From positions 1 through 64,000 of the forward strand of contig JAGLEV010000051.1 of NCBI GenBank assembly GCA_023144895.1: 64,000 nucleotides of DNA. Direction: 5' to 3'. The notes beneath the pieces are model-generated. The model saw only the letters and a list, made by a program, of their open reading frames with translations. It made no database searches and had not been told where the DNA came from. Numbering within the stretch: the stretch's first letter is position 1; every line of letters begins with the position of its first letter. The position numbers and the translations under genes are program-made. Shown one piece after another: positions 5,670 to 25,134 of this stretch. Origin of the DNA: Thiotrichaceae bacterium. Its GTDB lineage: Bacteria; Pseudomonadota; Gammaproteobacteria; Thiotrichales; Thiotrichaceae.

Positions 5670-6371
5670 TTACCAAGCAATCTCTGTGCCATCAATATCG
5701 AGAAACTGCCCGCTATGTTTCATCTCTGCGCTGGTGATCATTGCTAATAAACGTGTTGCTGATTCTTCAACAGAGATTTCACCATTAGGTCCTCCCATAT
5801 CGGTGCGAACCCAACCAGGATGAAGAATCATGACAATAATATCACGATGTTTTAGATCACGAGCAGCACTAACACTAACCGCATTGAGTGCCGCTTTAGT
5901 GGCGCGATAAGCATAAGCACCCCCTGATCCATTATCATCCATACTGGCCATTTTACTACTGATATTAGCAATGACTTTCATCGAACTCGATGCAATATTA
6001 TCAACAAATAATTCCATCAGCTTCATTGGTGCTAATAAATTAACCTGTACCGCTTCTTCCCATGTCGTGGCTTTCTCTGTAGAACGACCAAATTGAGATG
6101 CTGTGACTGCATGAATACCCGCATTATTAATTAATACATCAATAGGGTCTGAGCCAATAGTACTCTGTAGCATATTGAGTTGTTTTTCATCACGTACATC
6201 AAGTGTATGGCATTGTATCTGTTGAGGGTATTGCTTTTGTAATGCTAATAGCTCTGTGGCTTGATCAAGCTGGCGACAACAAGCATGGATAGTCCAGTCT
6301 TGCTTTGCAGTGAGTTGGCATAGTGCAAGTCCAATACCGCGGTTAGCACCTGTAATTAATAAACTTGGCAT
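5670..6371 (-). CDS. Short-chain dehydrogenase/reductase (SDR family)
   Basis: Classical NAD(P)-dependent short-chain dehydrogenase of 233 residues. It shows the TGANRGIG cofactor motif at residues 7-14, DVRDE after the second strand, the NNAG motif (VLINNAGIH), ISSKMAS with the catalytic serine, YRATK as the catalytic YxxxK, and HPGWVRTDMGG after the active site. The last is typical of the sniffer / C-factor-like SDR group. I start it at the ATG at 6371 (MPSLLITGANRG). A longer frame beginning at 6431 would overlap the FHA gene and add a Lys-rich stretch that is only that gene's tail read in another frame. It lies 4 bases after the FHA gene and 11 before the radical SAM gene, so it is co-transcribed. 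Substrate unknown. Confidence 0.88.
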   Translation of the reverse strand: MPSLLITGANRGIGLALCQLTAKQDWTIHACCRQLDQATELLALQKQYPQQIQCHTLDVRDEKQLNMLQSTIGSDPIDVLINNAGIHAVTASQFGRSTEKATTWEEAVQVNLLAPMKLMELFVDNIASSSMKVIANISSKMASMDDNGSGGAYAYRATKAALNAVSVSAARDLKHRDIIVMILHPGWVRTDMGGPNGEISVEESATRLLAMITSAEMKHSGQFLDIDGTEIAW

Positions 6372-6375
6372 AGTC

Positions 6376-7365
6376 CTAATTCTCGTTTTCATTTTCATTT
6401 TTTCCGACGATTTCTTGAAAGACTTCATCACCGAGTTTTTTATCTGCTTCAGTAATAAAGTCTACAATAGAAATAGTCTCTTGTTGGCGGATGTCCCAAT
6501 GACTTAATTGTTTATTATAGTTGGGCAGATGCACAAAGTCTGGAGCGGCGGCTTCTTCAATAAAGTTTAAAATATGATGAGCAATTAGGGGGGTGCTAAC
6601 TAATAAGGAGATCCCAATGGCTTGGAGTGTTTTAGAGTGAGCAACATGAATAATAAAGAGGGTGAGTAAGATAGGTAATAATAAAACACTGACAATGTTT
6701 TTCATTATATTACTTACCGTGTCATCACTAAAGTAGTAGCTAATCGTTTCACCCGCATAATCGACTAGCTCTGGTATTAGAAAAAGCAATGAAGCCGTGG
6801 TTAGGGCGGGAAAGACATCCCAACGGTGGCTTGCTAATCGGCTAATTCCAACAATAACAAGGAAAAATAGTAGTAAGTAAAGGTAGGAGGTATATTTTAT
6901 AACAACATACTGCCAGATACTTTTATCCGTTGGAGTCGCAAGATATTCATCGGCAATAAAGACAAATAGAGTGAAAATTAATAGACTTATTGCCCAGAAA
7001 GGGTGACTTAATTGATGAAATATTCCTTTAGATTTCTGTATTTGGGTGGGTGCTACTGCTGTTTCTGAAGAGAGTACCCTCAGTTTTAAGCTACCAGCAA
7101 TAATATCCACAGGCAATGACACCGCTTGTTTTACATCAGAGGGTAGTACTGTTTTATTTAACTTAGTGATATTTTCATTGGATAGATTAGTGATATTTAG
7201 ACCCGCGTCTAAATCACCTTCAATCAATAAATGGTGAGCTGAAACAGTGGATTCAGAAAGAATAATATCGTTATCAAAGGCACGACCAATAGTGATTCGG
7301 TCGTTACTTATCGGATGAAATTGTTGTAAACCACGTCGACAGACTTCGATAATTACTTTTGCCAT
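6376..7365 (-). CDS. FHA-domain membrane protein
   Basis: 329 residues. Residues about 20-98 form a forkhead-associated domain, the phosphothreonine-binding fold: ITIGRAFDNDI with the GR pair at 27-28, then SESTVSAHH at 38-45 and an Asn-rich NLSNEN turn at 60-65. This is followed by about five hydrophobic segments (near residues 120-142, 151-172, 180-203, 218-241 and 245-268) and a charged cytoplasmic or periplasmic tail ending in a short NENENEN repeat. The FHA part should face the cytoplasm and recruit a phosphorylated partner, but no Ser/Thr kinase is visible in the window. Its start overlaps the protease stop by 13 bases, which indicates translational coupling. The membrane part resembles no transporter that I recognise. 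Confidence 0.82.
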   Translation of the reverse strand: MAKVIIEVCRRGLQQFHPISNDRITIGRAFDNDIILSESTVSAHHLLIEGDLDAGLNITNLSNENITKLNKTVLPSDVKQAVSLPVDIIAGSLKLRVLSSETAVAPTQIQKSKGIFHQLSHPFWAISLLIFTLFVFIADEYLATPTDKSIWQYVVIKYTSYLYLLLFFLVIVGISRLASHRWDVFPALTTASLLFLIPELVDYAGETISYYFSDDTVSNIMKNIVSVLLLPILLTLFIIHVAHSKTLQAIGISLLVSTPLIAHHILNFIEEAAAPDFVHLPNYNKQLSHWDIRQQETISIVDFITEADKKLGDEVFQEIVGKNENENEN

Positions 7366-18910: not shown

Positions 18911-19813
18911 ATGAAAAAAGGAATGATTGAATTAATGATAGTCCTATTAGGGGTGGTTGTAGCAGTGCCTAGCACAGCACAAAGCCCTTATTCAAAGTCT
19001 ATATTTCAAGCAGGAAAAGAGGTAGTTGTCGCTCGTGCTCCGAAAAAAGTCCTTGGAGGCCCTTATGTGAGCAGTCGATTAAAGGGTGATCAAAAAACAG
19101 AATTGAAGAAATCAGGAACGACAATAAAGCTTAATGCCATACTGCCTTCTAAGTTGAGCATTAAGAGTTCAAAGATTAGATGGATTGTTACTAGAGGAAG
19201 TAAAAAATATAGAGCCAGTGGTCACCACGCTTCTTTTAATCTAAAGCCAGGTAAGTACACGGTTAGTATAAAAGTTGATAAGCTGGTTAAAAACAGTAGA
19301 ACCATTAAGGTAATAAAAAGTAGAAATTCAGCGCAAAATTTCTCTTTGTCAGTGAAGGCAGGGCGTTTGGTAACCTATGTTGCTTCAAAAGATGAGGTGG
19401 TGAAAGTATTCAATTCAAAGGGGCAGGTGATTGCAACATCGAATAGTGAAGGCTATTTGTCAAGAGTCCTGCCTGTGGGTCGATATACTGTAAAGACAAA
19501 GGCTCGAGGTCGTAATCAGATTGTTAAGGTACTTGATGGAAAGACAGTGAGTACACGCTTTAAGGCATCACGTAAGGGAACGGTAGAAGTTCGTGCACTC
19601 AATAAGGGTTCATCCATTCTTCCTAAAGGTGCTAGGATAAATATATATTCTTCAAAAGGGAAAGAGATAAAATCTGTCTTGAGGAGTACCTATCGTATAA
19701 AGCTAAGCCCTGGAAGTTATAAGGCGACCTTGACAATTAAAGGTGTAGAAAAAACCCGTAAGGAATTTAAAATAGTACACAAAAAAACACAGTCAATTAT
19801 ATTGAAGATGTGA
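18911..19813 (+). CDS. Secreted, very basic beta-repeat protein, function unknown
   Basis: 300 residues with a signal peptide (MKKGMIELMIVLLGVVVAVP, cleavage near STAQ at about residue 24). The mature part is unusually rich in Lys, Arg, Ser and Val and almost free of Cys and Trp. A weak repeat is visible: LKPGKYTVSIKV (about 107-118), LPVGRYTVKTKA and LSPGSYKATLTI (near 268-279), each a Pro-Gly-x-Tyr turn followed by alternating hydrophobic strand residues. These resemble carboxypeptidase-regulatory or Ig-like beta-sandwich strands. A cationic periplasmic or surface protein that binds anionic polymer is a possible reading, given the acidic-sugar cluster just upstream, but that is inference. 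AAGGAAGGTG stands 6 bases before the ATG. Confidence 0.7.
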   Translation: MKKGMIELMIVLLGVVVAVPSTAQSPYSKSIFQAGKEVVVARAPKKVLGGPYVSSRLKGDQKTELKKSGTTIKLNAILPSKLSIKSSKIRWIVTRGSKKYRASGHHASFNLKPGKYTVSIKVDKLVKNSRTIKVIKSRNSAQNFSLSVKAGRLVTYVASKDEVVKVFNSKGQVIATSNSEGYLSRVLPVGRYTVKTKARGRNQIVKVLDGKTVSTRFKASRKGTVEVRALNKGSSILPKGARINIYSSKGKEIKSVLRSTYRIKLSPGSYKATLTIKGVEKTRKEFKIVHKKTQSIILKM

Positions 19814-19874: not shown

Positions 19875-20492
19875 TTATTCACAAGTCTGACCTATCGTAT
19901 TTTTCTTCAGAGTACAAATAAACCGAGCAATAAATATAATCAATAATATAACCGCATAAAGCACGGGTTCATAGATATTTGATTTTACCAGCCACCAGTA
20001 ATGAACAATACCTAATATGGGTAGGACATAAGCAAGCTTGTGTAGTTGTATCCACTTTTTCTTTAGTAAGCGAATCATGAATTTAGCTGAAGTAATGGCA
20101 AGGGGTATGAGTAATAAATAGGCTAGCATTCCTACGGTGATAAAGGGGCGATTGACTATGTCATGGAGAATGTCTTCCCATACAAAAAATTGATCTAGCC
20201 ATAAATAAGTAATGAAATGTAAACTTGCATAGAAAAAAGCATACAAGCCTAAAATTCGACGGCAACGTGTTAGTTGATTCCAGCCTAATAGTCGCTTGAG
20301 AGGCGAAACCAGTAAGCTAATTAATAAAAAACGTAAAGCCCAATCACCTGTTTGGTGGGTCATTGCCTCAAGAGGGTTAGCCCCCAGATTTTTGCTATAA
20401 AAGCTCCACGCCAATATAAATACTGGCACAAGTGCCAGCACAAAGATAAAAGGTTTAAAAACTTTAGTAAAATAAGGCTCTTTTATATACAT
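19875..20492 (-). CDS. msrQ: MsrQ, heme-binding membrane subunit of the MsrPQ system
   Basis: 205-residue ferric-reductase-like membrane protein with about six hydrophobic segments. Conserved histidines lie in ASLHFITYLW (about residues 90-99), in WIQLHKLAYVLP and in IVHYWWLVKS (about 159-168), which coordinate the hemes. It passes electrons from the quinone pool or flavin to periplasmic MsrP for repair of oxidised methionines. It begins 13 bases after msrP, so the two form an operon. Length and the TRCRRILGLYAF loop agree with the family (formerly YedZ). Confidence 0.93.
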   Translation of the reverse strand: MYIKEPYFTKVFKPFIFVLALVPVFILAWSFYSKNLGANPLEAMTHQTGDWALRFLLISLLVSPLKRLLGWNQLTRCRRILGLYAFFYASLHFITYLWLDQFFVWEDILHDIVNRPFITVGMLAYLLLIPLAITSAKFMIRLLKKKWIQLHKLAYVLPILGIVHYWWLVKSNIYEPVLYAVILLIIFIARFICTLKKNTIGQTCE

Positions 20493-20505: not shown

Positions 20506-21426
20506 CTAATAGTTCTGTTTTAGATCCATGCCCTTATATAAATGAGCAACCTCTTCGGCATAGCCATTAAACATCAATGTTTTACGCTTACGATATTTAC
20601 CAATTCGACGCTCACGGCTTTGTGACCAGCGTGGATGATTAACATTTGGATTAACATTAGAATAGAAGCCATATTCAACTTTATTCGCTTTTTGCCATGA
20701 GCTTTCTAGTTGAGTCTCAAGAAAGCGAATTTTTGCAATACTTTTAATGCTTTTGAAGCCATACTTCCATGGTACAACTAGCCGTAAAGGAGCGCCATTT
20801 TGATTGGGTAAATCTTTACCATAAAGACCCGTTGCTAAGAGTGTTAAAGGGTTCATTGCTTCATCAATCCTCAAGCCTTCAATATAGGGCCACTCAAGAT
20901 GGTCTTGTTGCTGATTGGGCATATTTTCAGGATCATGCAGGGTTTCAAAATAAACATACTTTGCCTTAGAGGTGGGTTGAAAGCGTTTTAGTAGGCTTGC
21001 TAGTGAAAAACCATTCCATGGAATCACCATTGACCAGCCTTCAACACAGCGAAAACGATAAATACGCTCTTCTATTGTCATGCCCTTTAATATCTTTTCA
21101 AGAGAGTAATTTCCTGGCTTTTCACATTCACCTTCAACAATAATGTTCCATGGTGTTGTTTTTAGAGTGTGAGCATTTTCGTAAGGTGCCAGCTTATTCG
21201 TTCCAAACTCATAAAAATTATTATATTGAGTAATAGACTTATAGTCTGTTAGCTCTTCTTTTAAGGATTTTGTTGATTTTTTTGCCAAGCTTGGCGTGAT
21301 AATACTTGTACCAAGTAAAACGGTACCATAGCCTAGTTTTTTTATAAATTGACGACGATCTAGATAGAGCGATTCTTCCGTCACTTCAGATTCTTTTAAT
21401 GCGTAATTAGTCTTAGTTATTTTCAT
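20506..21426 (-). CDS. msrP: MsrP, periplasmic protein-methionine-sulfoxide reductase catalytic subunit
   Basis: Molybdopterin enzyme of the sulfite-oxidase fold, 306 residues. A twin-arginine signal DRRQFIKKLG is at residues 23-32, preceded by a long hydrophilic n-region as in E. coli YedY, so export goes through Tat, encoded at 49130-51095. YRFRCVEGWSMVIPW contains the molybdenum-ligating cysteine. PLRLVVPWKYGFKSIKSI is the second cofactor-binding block. The C-terminal RWSQSRERRIG ... MFNGYAEEVAHLYKGM is diagnostic of the family. It repairs methionine sulfoxide in periplasmic proteins with MsrQ. Confidence 0.95.
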   Translation of the reverse strand: MKITKTNYALKESEVTEESLYLDRRQFIKKLGYGTVLLGTSIITPSLAKKSTKSLKEELTDYKSITQYNNFYEFGTNKLAPYENAHTLKTTPWNIIVEGECEKPGNYSLEKILKGMTIEERIYRFRCVEGWSMVIPWNGFSLASLLKRFQPTSKAKYVYFETLHDPENMPNQQQDHLEWPYIEGLRIDEAMNPLTLLATGLYGKDLPNQNGAPLRLVVPWKYGFKSIKSIAKIRFLETQLESSWQKANKVEYGFYSNVNPNVNHPRWSQSRERRIGKYRKRKTLMFNGYAEEVAHLYKGMDLKQNY

Positions 21427-21524: not shown

Positions 21525-22298
21525 TTAGCTTTTTACACCCAAAATAATCTCCTTTGTTTGCAATTTTAGTAGGATTTTTTCTCCACGGATAATAGCCTCG
21601 TCAATATTAGGGTGATTCATTTCCGTTGCTAATTGAGTTAAGACTTGATTGCCTGTTAATTGTTCATCTCCTTGTAATAATTCCATAATTCTTGCAGTAA
21701 CAGGGTCTGCACTTAGCTGATTCACCTGCCCAGACTGGTCACGATTAATAATAATAAAGCTAGGTTGCGCAGGCTTTTCTTCCTGAGTCGGTTGATAATT
21801 AACGTTTATTTTATTGATAGGCCATTGGTAAGCAAGACAGTATGCGGTAGGTGATAATACTAAAATACCTTCTAATAAATTTCCTTTAGTATCAATTTCT
21901 TCCCAGAGAATCATTGTTTGATCAACCATCAAAGCAACTTCAGCCCACTCAAAATGAGCTAATTCAAATAAATAAGGTGGATCATTGTCATTTGCTTGGT
22001 ATTCTTGCTGTAAATATTCTACAAATTCTTTGGAAATATCAATAAACCAAGGGCTATGGCTTTGATGCTTTGCAAAAAAAACTCGGACTAGTTTAACCCA
22101 ATGTTTTTCATCGTAATGGGTATGTAAAATAGGAAAGCCATTTTCTAAAAAACCACGTACATTATTAAAAAATAACTCTCGATAAATAGCGAGTCGTCGA
22201 TCTTCAATCCCAGAAGGTGCAGGAACACCCTCAGGATCACGAATATGTGCACTAAAATCCAGCTGTAAACGTTGAAACTCAGGAAGTTGCTTAGTCAT
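21525..22298 (-). CDS. DUF2063 protein (BufC/HvfC-type partner of MNIO)
   Basis: 257 residues. The N-terminal DUF2063 domain is recognised from FQRLQLDFSAHIRD, EDRRLAIYRELFFNNVRGFLE (about residues 32-52) and VRVFFAKHQSHSPWFIDISKEF. This is the precursor-recognition-like partner that travels with DUF692 enzymes in HvfABC/Buf RiPP clusters. The C-terminal part (about 170-257) is a helical region matching the second domain of that family. It starts 2 bases from the DUF692 stop, so the pair is translated together. In known systems the partner forms a heterodimer with the MNIO enzyme. Confidence 0.88.
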   Translation of the reverse strand: MTKQLPEFQRLQLDFSAHIRDPEGVPAPSGIEDRRLAIYRELFFNNVRGFLENGFPILHTHYDEKHWVKLVRVFFAKHQSHSPWFIDISKEFVEYLQQEYQANDNDPPYLFELAHFEWAEVALMVDQTMILWEEIDTKGNLLEGILVLSPTAYCLAYQWPINKINVNYQPTQEEKPAQPSFIIINRDQSGQVNQLSADPVTARIMELLQGDEQLTGNQVLTQLATEMNHPNIDEAIIRGEKILLKLQTKEIILGVKS

Positions 22299-22300
22299 AA

Positions 22301-23146
22301 CTAAGTGACCTGACTAGCGTGTTGATGCTTCATTTGATATTGACTGACCATTTTCACTTCTTTTATTAATACATCTAAGGGCGGAATATTGAAATCCCGC
22401 TCAACTAAAGTAGGAAAGACACCAAACTGTTGATAAGCTGTATCAAGCAATTGCCAAACAGGATCAATAATATCAGCACCATGTGTATCAATAATAAGGT
22501 CATCGGCCTCATTATAATGTCCTGCAATATGTGCATATACAATTCGTTCACTAGGTAATGCTTGTAAAAATTCTTTGGCATTATATTGATGATTGACAGA
22601 GTTAACATAGATATTATTAATATCTATATGTAGGTGACAATCAGCCTCTGATAGTACCGCATTGATAAACTCAATCTCGCTGAGTTCAGTCGATGTCATG
22701 GCATAAAAGGATACATTTTCCATTGCGATACGTTGTTCTAGAATGTCCTGTACTTGCTTAATGCGGTCAGCGACATAAAAGACAGCCTCTTCGGTAAAGG
22801 GAATAGGCAATAAATCATAAAGATGACCACCATCTGAGCAGTAACTCAAGTGTTCGCTATAAGAACAGATATTAAAATCTTTTAGAAATTGCTTAATCTC
22901 TTTAACAAAATCAATATCTAAAGGTGCTGGGCCACCAATAGAAAGGGAGAGTCCATGAGTCACAAAAGGGACTTGTTCAGCCAAAGCCTTGAGTCGATTT
23001 TGTAAAGCACGCCCCATGGGAATCCAATTTTCTGGAGCCACTTCCATAAAGTTAATGGTCTCTGGTATGCCTTTTTCTAACTCTTCCATGAGTTGACCAC
23101 GACGCAAGCCTAGACCTGCGCCATGAACAGGATAATTACTTTCCAT
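22301..23146 (-). CDS. DUF692 multinuclear non-heme iron oxidase (MNIO; BufB/HvfB-type)
   Basis: 281-residue TIM-barrel iron enzyme. Family metal-binding and core blocks are present in order: GLGLRRGQ near the start, NFMEVAPENW, FVTHGLSLSIGG, SYSEHLSYC, MENVSFYA, LHIDINNIYVNS, VYAHIAGH and PTLVERDFNIPP. Histidines, Asp, Glu and Asn in these blocks are the usual iron ligands. Known members convert cysteines of a DUF2282-type precursor to oxazolone-thioamide or related groups that bind copper. Its start overlaps the DoxX stop by one base. I find no precursor gene on either side, which is the odd point of this locus. Confidence 0.92.
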   Translation of the reverse strand: MESNYPVHGAGLGLRRGQLMEELEKGIPETINFMEVAPENWIPMGRALQNRLKALAEQVPFVTHGLSLSIGGPAPLDIDFVKEIKQFLKDFNICSYSEHLSYCSDGGHLYDLLPIPFTEEAVFYVADRIKQVQDILEQRIAMENVSFYAMTSTELSEIEFINAVLSEADCHLHIDINNIYVNSVNHQYNAKEFLQALPSERIVYAHIAGHYNEADDLIIDTHGADIIDPVWQLLDTAYQQFGVFPTLVERDFNIPPLDVLIKEVKMVSQYQMKHQHASQVT

Positions 23147-23733
23147 TATTTTCCTTTAAACCAGTTTTGTAGGTAATGATCCATACTGACAAAACGTCCA
23201 GCCCCTAAAAAAAGTAGTGCTAATAACATGATGAAGTAAGTTACCGCCCATTCTACCCCATTATTTGAAACGACTAAACTACCATATTCGGTTAAATGTG
23301 AGTAATCACCTTGAGCTTTTAAAGTTTCTTTAGCTTCGCTTAAACGTTGTAATGCCATCGATGCTGTTTCTGGAGGGAAGGGAGATTTAAGATCCATTAC
23401 CGCTTGCCAACCATTTTTCCAATGGACAGAAAGTGCCGCTACTGCCATTGTTGCCATGAGAGGAATACTAATCCAGCGTACTCCCAAGCCCACTAGTAGT
23501 AATACAGCGCCAATGACTTCCGTACCGGTTGCCAGTATTGCCATTAAAGTCGGGAAGGGCAAGCCAAGACCACTACCAAACCATGAAACAATATTATCAA
23601 AGCCTTGTAGTTTATTCATTCCTGCAATCCAAAAAACAGGAGCTAGATAGAGACGAAGAGCCAAAGGGGCTAAAAAATCAAGGCTTTGTAGTCGCTCCAT
23701 AAATGATTGAGGTAATGCTAAAATTTTATTCAT
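23146..23733 (-). CDS. DoxX-family membrane protein (HvfX-like)
   Basis: 195 residues with about four hydrophobic segments, including LRLYLAPVFWIAGMNKLQGF (about residues 25-44), the typical start of DoxX, then ATGTEVIGAVLLLVGLGVRW and a last segment near ALLFLGAGRF. An insertion of about 45 polar residues (SPFPPETASMALQRLSEAKE region) lies between segments three and four. DoxX proteins commonly accompany DUF692-DUF2063 pairs (HvfX in Haemophilus-type loci). AGGAGA stands at a good distance before the ATG. It is the first gene of the cluster as seen here; the 180 bases before it contain no open frame that could be a precursor. Confidence 0.9.
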   Translation of the reverse strand: MNKILALPQSFMERLQSLDFLAPLALRLYLAPVFWIAGMNKLQGFDNIVSWFGSGLGLPFPTLMAILATGTEVIGAVLLLVGLGVRWISIPLMATMAVAALSVHWKNGWQAVMDLKSPFPPETASMALQRLSEAKETLKAQGDYSHLTEYGSLVVSNNGVEWAVTYFIMLLALLFLGAGRFVSMDHYLQNWFKGK

Positions 23734-23915
23734 ATTATTCTCCTAATAAATATTCAAATGAGATTTTCACTATTAATTACGGGATCAACAGTGAAGTAGA
23801 TGCAGGAATTATTGAGAGAGAGAAATAAATGATATTAATTAAATTGGTGCTCAACTAAGCCACTTTTTAGGTTTGCTCGCCACTATTTTAGTGTTATCAC
23901 TTGCCTTATATTATT

Positions 23916-24272: not shown

Positions 24273-24607
24273 GATTTTTATCCTATAATAATAATTTTTG
24301 TTCAAATATAGGTGGCTCAATTCTGGTAATAAGGTAACACAATACTATTTTTCAGATTGTTTTGAGGCTGGAAAAGTGTTCAGATCAAATTAGCAGGACT
24401 GCTTGTCATTCTGACTAAGGGCTTTCCAAGTGGCAAACATCTGGCTATGCCTTCAAAGCTCAAATATCGTAGATCTCTCAGTGACAAAAATGACAGTATG
24501 CTAGTAGCTCCTGATAAAGTTATGTAGGTCAAAGCACATGCAATCCAATTCCATAAATATGCTATAATTGTTCCATTGAAAGCTAAAGAGTAATGAGGTG
24601 TAAGATA
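24273..24607. other. Intergenic region with possible promoter for the TA remnant
   Basis: 335 bases between divergent genes. A TATAAT at 24563-24568 lies 40 bases before the antitoxin ATG and is the best -10 box seen, but the matching -35 (around 24540) is poor. GAGGTG at 24595-24600 is the ribosome-binding site of the antitoxin gene. Nothing else recognised. Confidence 0.4.
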
Positions 24608-24847
24608 ATGATCTTATCAGTTGAAAAAGATAAATTAATAAATGAAATTAGCCTGTTGCCAGAAGATAAGTTAGAAGAAGTATATAATATTATCCATTAC
24701 TTCCGCTTGGGTACAGAAAAAGAAAAAGAAAATGATATTTTGTCCTTCTCTGGTTCATGGAAAGACATGGGGGATAACAAGTTTGATGATTATTTGTCAG
24801 ATATAGCAGAAAGACGAAATAAAGCATTTAGTAGCAGAGGTCGTTAA
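24608..24847 (+). CDS. Small antitoxin-like protein (VapC partner)
   Basis: 79 residues starting at the ATG at 24608, which has GAGGTG 7 bases upstream. An earlier frame start at 24593 is unlikely. The N-terminal helix pattern (KDKLINEISLLPEDKLEEVYNIIHYFR) resembles DUF2281-like antitoxins that have no classic AbrB start. The C-terminus is acidic then basic, with FSGSWKDMGDNKFDDYL (about residues 44-60), the usual toxin-blocking tail that begins with 'saGsW'. The stop overlaps the VapC start by one base (TAATG). The partner toxin is truncated, so the pair is probably inactive. Confidence 0.75.
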   Translation: MILSVEKDKLINEISLLPEDKLEEVYNIIHYFRLGTEKEKENDILSFSGSWKDMGDNKFDDYLSDIAERRNKAFSSRGR

Positions 24848-25134
24848 TGAAGCCAGCATTGATAGATACAGATATTTTATCAAAGTTTTTGAAAGGAAAT
24901 ACAAAAGTTAAAGAAAAATTCAAGAACTACCTGAGAGCATATAATCACATCAATTTTAGCATCATTACGTACTATGAAATTATAAGTGGCTTAAAACATA
25001 GAGATGCACACAAGCAAATTAATACCTTCCTTGAATTTTCAGCACTCAATAATATTTTACCCCTCACTATACAGTCATCCAAAAACTCCGCAGTGATATA
25101 TGCTGATCTAAGGAAGAAAGGAACTGAAGCCTGA
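24847..25134 (+). pseudogene. VapC-like PIN ribonuclease, C-terminally truncated
   Basis: 95 residues compared with about 130 for a full VapC. The N-terminus is intact: ALIDTDILSKFLKGN with the first catalytic aspartates (residues 7 and 9) and ITYYEIISGLKH with the second acidic residue (about residue 43). The frame then ends at IYADLRKKGTEA, just where the 'DxxIAA' block with the third and fourth catalytic acids should begin. The stop lies one base from the end of trmJ on the other strand, so the missing third was lost by a deletion rather than by a point stop. I expect no nuclease activity. Confidence 0.75.

Follow-up and report, generated by a model that had tools for sequence, protein, structure and literature searches.

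Where is the substrate of a peptide-modifying enzyme encoded when no precursor gene lies beside the gene of the enzyme? The question is raised by a locus of the window, i.e., the whole stretch of 64,000 nucleotides analysed here, in which an MNIO (DUF692) gene is accompanied by its partner genes only. In this family, a precursor encoded in the same operon is common, but not universal (PMC12452194).

The hvfX-hvfB-hvfC operon and its surroundings

Three tightly coupled genes, hvfX (23146..23733), hvfB (22301..23146) and hvfC (21525..22298), lie on the minus strand; hvfX and hvfB overlap by 1 base and hvfB is separated from hvfC by 2 bases. Coordinates, strand and spacing (-1 and 2) are exactly those of the first-pass annotation, and its DoxX, MNIO and DUF2063 assignments are confirmed by Pfam. 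hvfX encodes a DoxX-family membrane protein of 195 aa (NCBIfam NF050144, 213 bits for a cut-off of 80; Pfam DoxX PF07681), hvfB an MNIO, RiPP-modifying iron enzyme of 281 aa (NCBIfam NF003818 HvfB, 430 bits for a cut-off of 360; Pfam PF05114, 336 bits) and hvfC a DUF2063/NGO1945-type, precursor-binding partner of 257 aa (NCBIfam NF050145, 274 bits for a cut-off of 142; Pfam DUF2063 PF09836 and NGO1945_C PF22106). All three genes are intact in this genome. Judged by its matches to these models, the trio is the standard HvfB-HvfC-HvfX set for a copper-binding modified peptide. Furthermore, HvfB aligns with PDB 3BWW (E 1e-75) and retains the HGLSLS, EN, HxDxNNIY, HIAGH and DTHG motifs, the last-listed of which correspond, when matched motif by motif, to N175, D242 and H244, the residues required for activity of the Haemophilus enzyme (PMC13419390).

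The trio is followed on the same strand by msrP (20506..21426), encoding the molybdopterin subunit of a periplasmic methionine-sulfoxide reductase (NCBIfam NF003767, 457 bits), and then by msrQ (19875..20492), encoding the haem-binding membrane subunit of MsrPQ (NCBIfam NF003831, 183 bits). msrP starts 98 bases downstream of hvfC; it probably belongs to the same transcription unit as hvfXBC, or to a neighbouring one. The order msrP-msrQ after hvfC is also found in two loci of the same genus (L142 and L144), and msrPQ-type genes have been reported in a few EGKCG clusters (PMC12452194). Beyond msrQ, on the plus strand (18911-19813), lies a gene for a lysine-rich secreted protein of 300 aa, with weak carboxypeptidase-regulatory-like repeats and zero cysteines.

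The NCBIfam assignments of HvfX, HvfB and HvfC set the kind of precursor to be expected, namely an HvfA with EGKCG repeats and not a DUF2282 protein, HvfB-type enzymes being known to act on the former and not on the latter (PMC13097082, PMC13419390). The DUF2282-type precursor that had initially been expected here goes with BufB-type enzymes instead. To look for any precursor beside the operon, every short frame between 16.5 and 29.5 kb was considered under a loose criterion, i.e., a hydrophobic N-terminus followed by at least two later cysteines. The few frames that pass are all inside or antisense to other genes, so that no precursor is found near hvfXBC in this range, in agreement with the first-pass reading. 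The spacer upstream of hvfX (23734..23915, no strand), which is the site of hvfA in same-genus operons, was read directly and contains neither a precursor nor a remnant of one, and no EGKCG remnant is present upstream of hvfX. A decayed hvfA at this place was also considered and rejected: there is no similarity to the hvfA genes of the genus, and the hvfA-hvfX spacer of one genus member (G003) displays only a chance-level likeness. As the operon is located well inside a contig of 69,883 bases, the absent neighbour is not a contig-end effect. Further upstream, on the plus strand (24593-25134), a small gene precedes a VapC-like toxin gene that is seemingly truncated (95 aa) and whose VapC match is weak and below the cut-off; relatives have hvfA-side genes at this place.

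The distal EGKCG precursor

The whole genome was searched for a DUF2282 gene and for a second DUF692 gene, as the first-pass annotation had suggested, and both are present, together on contig C36. The genome contains two MNIOs only, the HvfB of the window and the C36 enzyme. The latter is of BufB type (323 bits on the BufB model, cut-off 310) and its gene is located between a DUF2282 precursor gene, bufA, which is the only DUF2282 gene of the genome, and a gene for a DUF2063 partner, forming a complete bufA-bufB-bufC set. Being paired with BufB on C36, the DUF2282 protein was rejected as the absent precursor of the window operon. The bufferin system BufABC (DUF2282) and the window system are alike in their MNIO and DUF2063 chemistry; however, the window enzyme is under the BufB cut-off (259 bits) and has no DUF2282 gene alongside.

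DNA encoding EGKCG is matched eight times in the whole genome, against none for a reversed control pattern. Seven of these matches fall within C75:14594-14932, and the eighth, on contig C1, is surrounded by unrelated genes and is attributed to chance. C75:14594-14932 is the sole HvfA-type gene of the genome, which supports the suggestion that the precursor is encoded elsewhere and leaves the other one made at the time, a different or very short substrate, unsupported. It encodes a protein of 112 aa that begins MITRKNLLALAVSTSLAATLVAC and continues with seven EGKCG motifs, all intact. This protein reaches 63.7 bits on the repeat-domain model NF050137 (cut-off 19.5) and 67.7 bits on the full-length HvfA model NF050188, under the cut-off of 95; the other HvfA copies of the genus likewise pass the repeat-domain model only. 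A profile combining every HvfA type of the genus gives no second match in the window genome beyond C75, and the EGQCG variant precursor, of the type adjoining hvfX in the genus member G005, is absent from it.

The signal peptide of the C75 HvfA contains a lipobox, LVAC, at residues 20-23, a call which, like all lipobox calls here, refers to the sequence pattern of the signal and not to SignalP or another trained predictor. The protein is thereby predicted to be membrane-anchored by a lipid. Its gene adjoins sulfur-oxidation genes, with a conserved TauD-like gene on one side and dsrAB on the other. No shared promoter motif of hvfA and hvfX is evident when their upstream regions are inspected by eye. 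Elsewhere on the same contig (L093, 155-439 and 6500-6781), PhoH-Bcp-nrdA near hvfA is flanked by genes for two small secreted proteins that resemble each other; both have curlin-like repeats, with the terminal sequences VGCNCK and VGCDCE, and the second one is without an NCBIfam match.

The context of the closest DUF692 homologues was also compared, as had been proposed. Among the 80 closest HvfB loci, 58 contain an EGKCG open reading frame of at least three motifs that precedes hvfB in the same orientation, which indicates that the enzymes of this branch take EGKCG substrates. The lipobox is found in none of the 53 EGKCG frames with a readable start at these 80 loci, versus all six distal copies of the genus. 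Among the best 30 class-wide matches, inspection leaves it only in the HvfA of the window genome; a regular-expression match at another locus (L165) turned out to be spurious, falling within an ordinary signal peptide. Other separations of precursor and enzyme genes occur in another family, in which a single run hvfA-hvfX-msrP-msrQ (L146, G025:C18, 7740-10571) and hvfB-hvfC (L147, 7408-9004) are on different contigs of the same genome, the cut being a different one; hvfX and msrP also adjoin hvfA in a second genome of that family (G182).

Operon-type and distal hvfA in the same genus

Three of the closest HvfB loci belong to genomes of the same genus, G003, G004 and G005. G003 contains one uninterrupted run, hvfA-hvfX-hvfB-hvfC-msrP-msrQ, with hvfA directly upstream of hvfX. 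The same position is indicated by contig ends for the two others. One G005 contig carries an operon-type hvfA together with a second precursor, of EGQCG type, and breaks off within the first codons of hvfX, the hvfX-hvfB-hvfC contig starting further into this gene. In G004, two hvfA genes lie on a contig of which exactly 67 end bases recur at the end of the hvfX contig. In G005, the second operon precursor, with EGQCG replacing EGKCG, lies between hvfA and hvfX (L140, G005:C10, about 6390-6770), and the hvfA that precedes it (5978-6298) encodes a histidine-rich stretch, HNHEGDTDHQHAEGG..., and only two EGKCG motifs. Two contig ends of G004 (L137, 1-540, and L143, 1-145) carry a short inverted-repeat sequence surrounding the hvfA-hvfX spacer, perhaps a small mobile element responsible for the break in the assembly.

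A lipobox-type hvfA beside TauD-dsrAB is present in the window genome, in G003 (two copies), in G004 and in G005, with one further lipobox copy elsewhere in G004. The window genome is without operon-type hvfA and has the lipobox type only. The TauD-like gene adjoins dsrA in genomes across the family, an EGKCG gene being there only in these four genomes; it was accordingly dismissed as a partner of the system, the TauD-dsrA pair being an old synteny that exists without any EGKCG gene. This distribution suggests that the lipobox hvfA was inserted in the ancestor of the four-genome group. Among 40 relatives, the window genome included, HvfB and HvfA are encoded by the same four members of the genus, and neither protein is encoded in G001 (69% complete) or G002.

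The window hvfB is under strong constraint and evolves no faster than those of its genus-mates. Synonymous sites are saturated (pS ~0.83) while pN is 0.13-0.18, and the lineage-specific HvfB changes, window versus genus-mate, amount to 18 vs 17, 15 vs 24 and 10 vs 19. Low pN at saturated pS, together with the lack of any excess of lineage-specific changes, points to continued selection on HvfB.

Proposed pathway, alternatives and known systems

Our results make it highly probable that the window carries a maturation operon, HvfB-HvfC-HvfX, for an oxazolin/captophorin, and that the corresponding precursor, the distal lipobox HvfA, is encoded in trans. The reference systems use HvfC to bind the precursor and HvfB to turn the EGKCG cysteines into 5-thiooxazoles, with a loss of 4 Da each; the signal peptide acts as leader prior to export (PMC13419390, PMC13097082). 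By analogy, HvfC would bind the C75 precursor and HvfB would oxidise the cysteines of its EGKCG repeats, most likely to copper-binding 5-thiooxazoles. This modification would take place in the cytoplasm; after export, the lipobox cysteine would be lipidated, and the product, a copper-binding lipopeptide, would be retained in the envelope. In this reading, the ancestor of the genus would have possessed both an hvfA in the operon, with an ordinary signal peptide, and a lipobox-type hvfA at a distance from it, beside dsrAB; in the window lineage, the operon copy would have been lost and the machinery retained for the distal one.

It could be argued that a second, operon-type hvfA is hidden in an assembly gap elsewhere and is the main substrate, as the contigs of G004 and G005 break at EGKCG repeats or close to them, and the window assembly consists of 103 contigs. 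We find this quite unlikely, since the DNA upstream of hvfX is contiguous and without hvfA, completeness is rated 100% and the all-types profile of the genus finds C75 only. Somewhat less credible still is that HvfBC acts on another, unrecognised substrate, short or devoid of EGKCG, the C75 protein being left unmodified or being modified by BufB. The lack of a precursor adjoining the operon and the hundreds of MNIO clusters reported with atypical precursors (PMC12452194) fit such a substrate, but the closest HvfB relatives nearly all adjoin EGKCG genes and no other frame with a signal peptide and cysteines is found nearby. Moreover, HvfB is the sole MNIO in G004 and G005, which carry a lipobox HvfA, so that this type of precursor is independent of BufB.

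Least probable of all, in our opinion, is that HvfBC is an unused relic on its way out after the loss of the operon hvfA. The precursor found in the operons of the genus-mates is indeed absent from the window genome; nevertheless, hvfX, hvfB and hvfC are undamaged, the constraint on hvfB equals that seen in the genus-mates, and a lipobox HvfA with its full set of seven motifs is present.

Modification of the distal HvfA in trans, the preferred reading, has precedents for several of its parts. The window system resembles Haemophilus influenzae hvfABCX (oxazolin; PMC13419390) in its HvfB, HvfC and HvfX orthologues, as defined by curated models, and in the presence of an EGKCG HvfA in the genome, but differs in the location of the precursor gene outside the operon, in the lipobox of its sole copy and in the msrPQ genes downstream. 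A lipoprotein signal on an EGKCG precursor is shared with NedABC of Neisseria dentiae, whose precursor was modified and triacylated in E. coli (PMC12636315); however, NedA was found by mining of MNIO neighbourhoods, which would miss a precursor located, as here, on another contig. Stand-alone bufferin and EGKCG precursors, whose genes have no MNIO gene nearby, are also known, and modification by an enzyme of a different locus has been proposed for them (PMC12452194); in contrast to these, the genus of the window shows both placements, the operon copy being gone in the window member. Fontiphorin/captophorin fonABC (PMC13097082) is alike in that an MNIO and PME1 act on EGKCG repeats, the product being a 5-thiooxazole, whereas its gene arrangement differs; for the window system, such a product is a prediction.

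The substrate class is not new, as both stand-alone precursors and lipidated oxazolins are published (PMC12452194, PMC12636315). The initial suggestion of a new variant of the system consequently stands in a weak sense only, for the gene arrangement, and not for the stand-alone precursor, which had already been described. In the literature searched, no description was found of a distal lipobox precursor that became the sole substrate once the operon copy was lost. This arrangement is a modest but testable twist, and a small step.

The results nevertheless show that a whole-genome search for the motif matched to the enzyme subfamily can resolve a seemingly precursor-less MNIO cluster, and that neighbourhood mining is blind to this lipobox precursor. 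One possibility, which we put forward tentatively and hold to be rather less than even, is that, in this genus, a single HvfBC pair modifies HvfA proteins of two kinds with separate destinations: operon-encoded ones that are released into the periplasm, and distal ones with a lipid anchor, whose gene was inserted beside the dsr sulfur-oxidation cluster. The window species would have kept only the membrane-anchored kind, which would tie a thiooxazole copper peptide to sulfur metabolism. With the one visible substrate of its enzyme on another contig, this species is a natural test of modification in trans.
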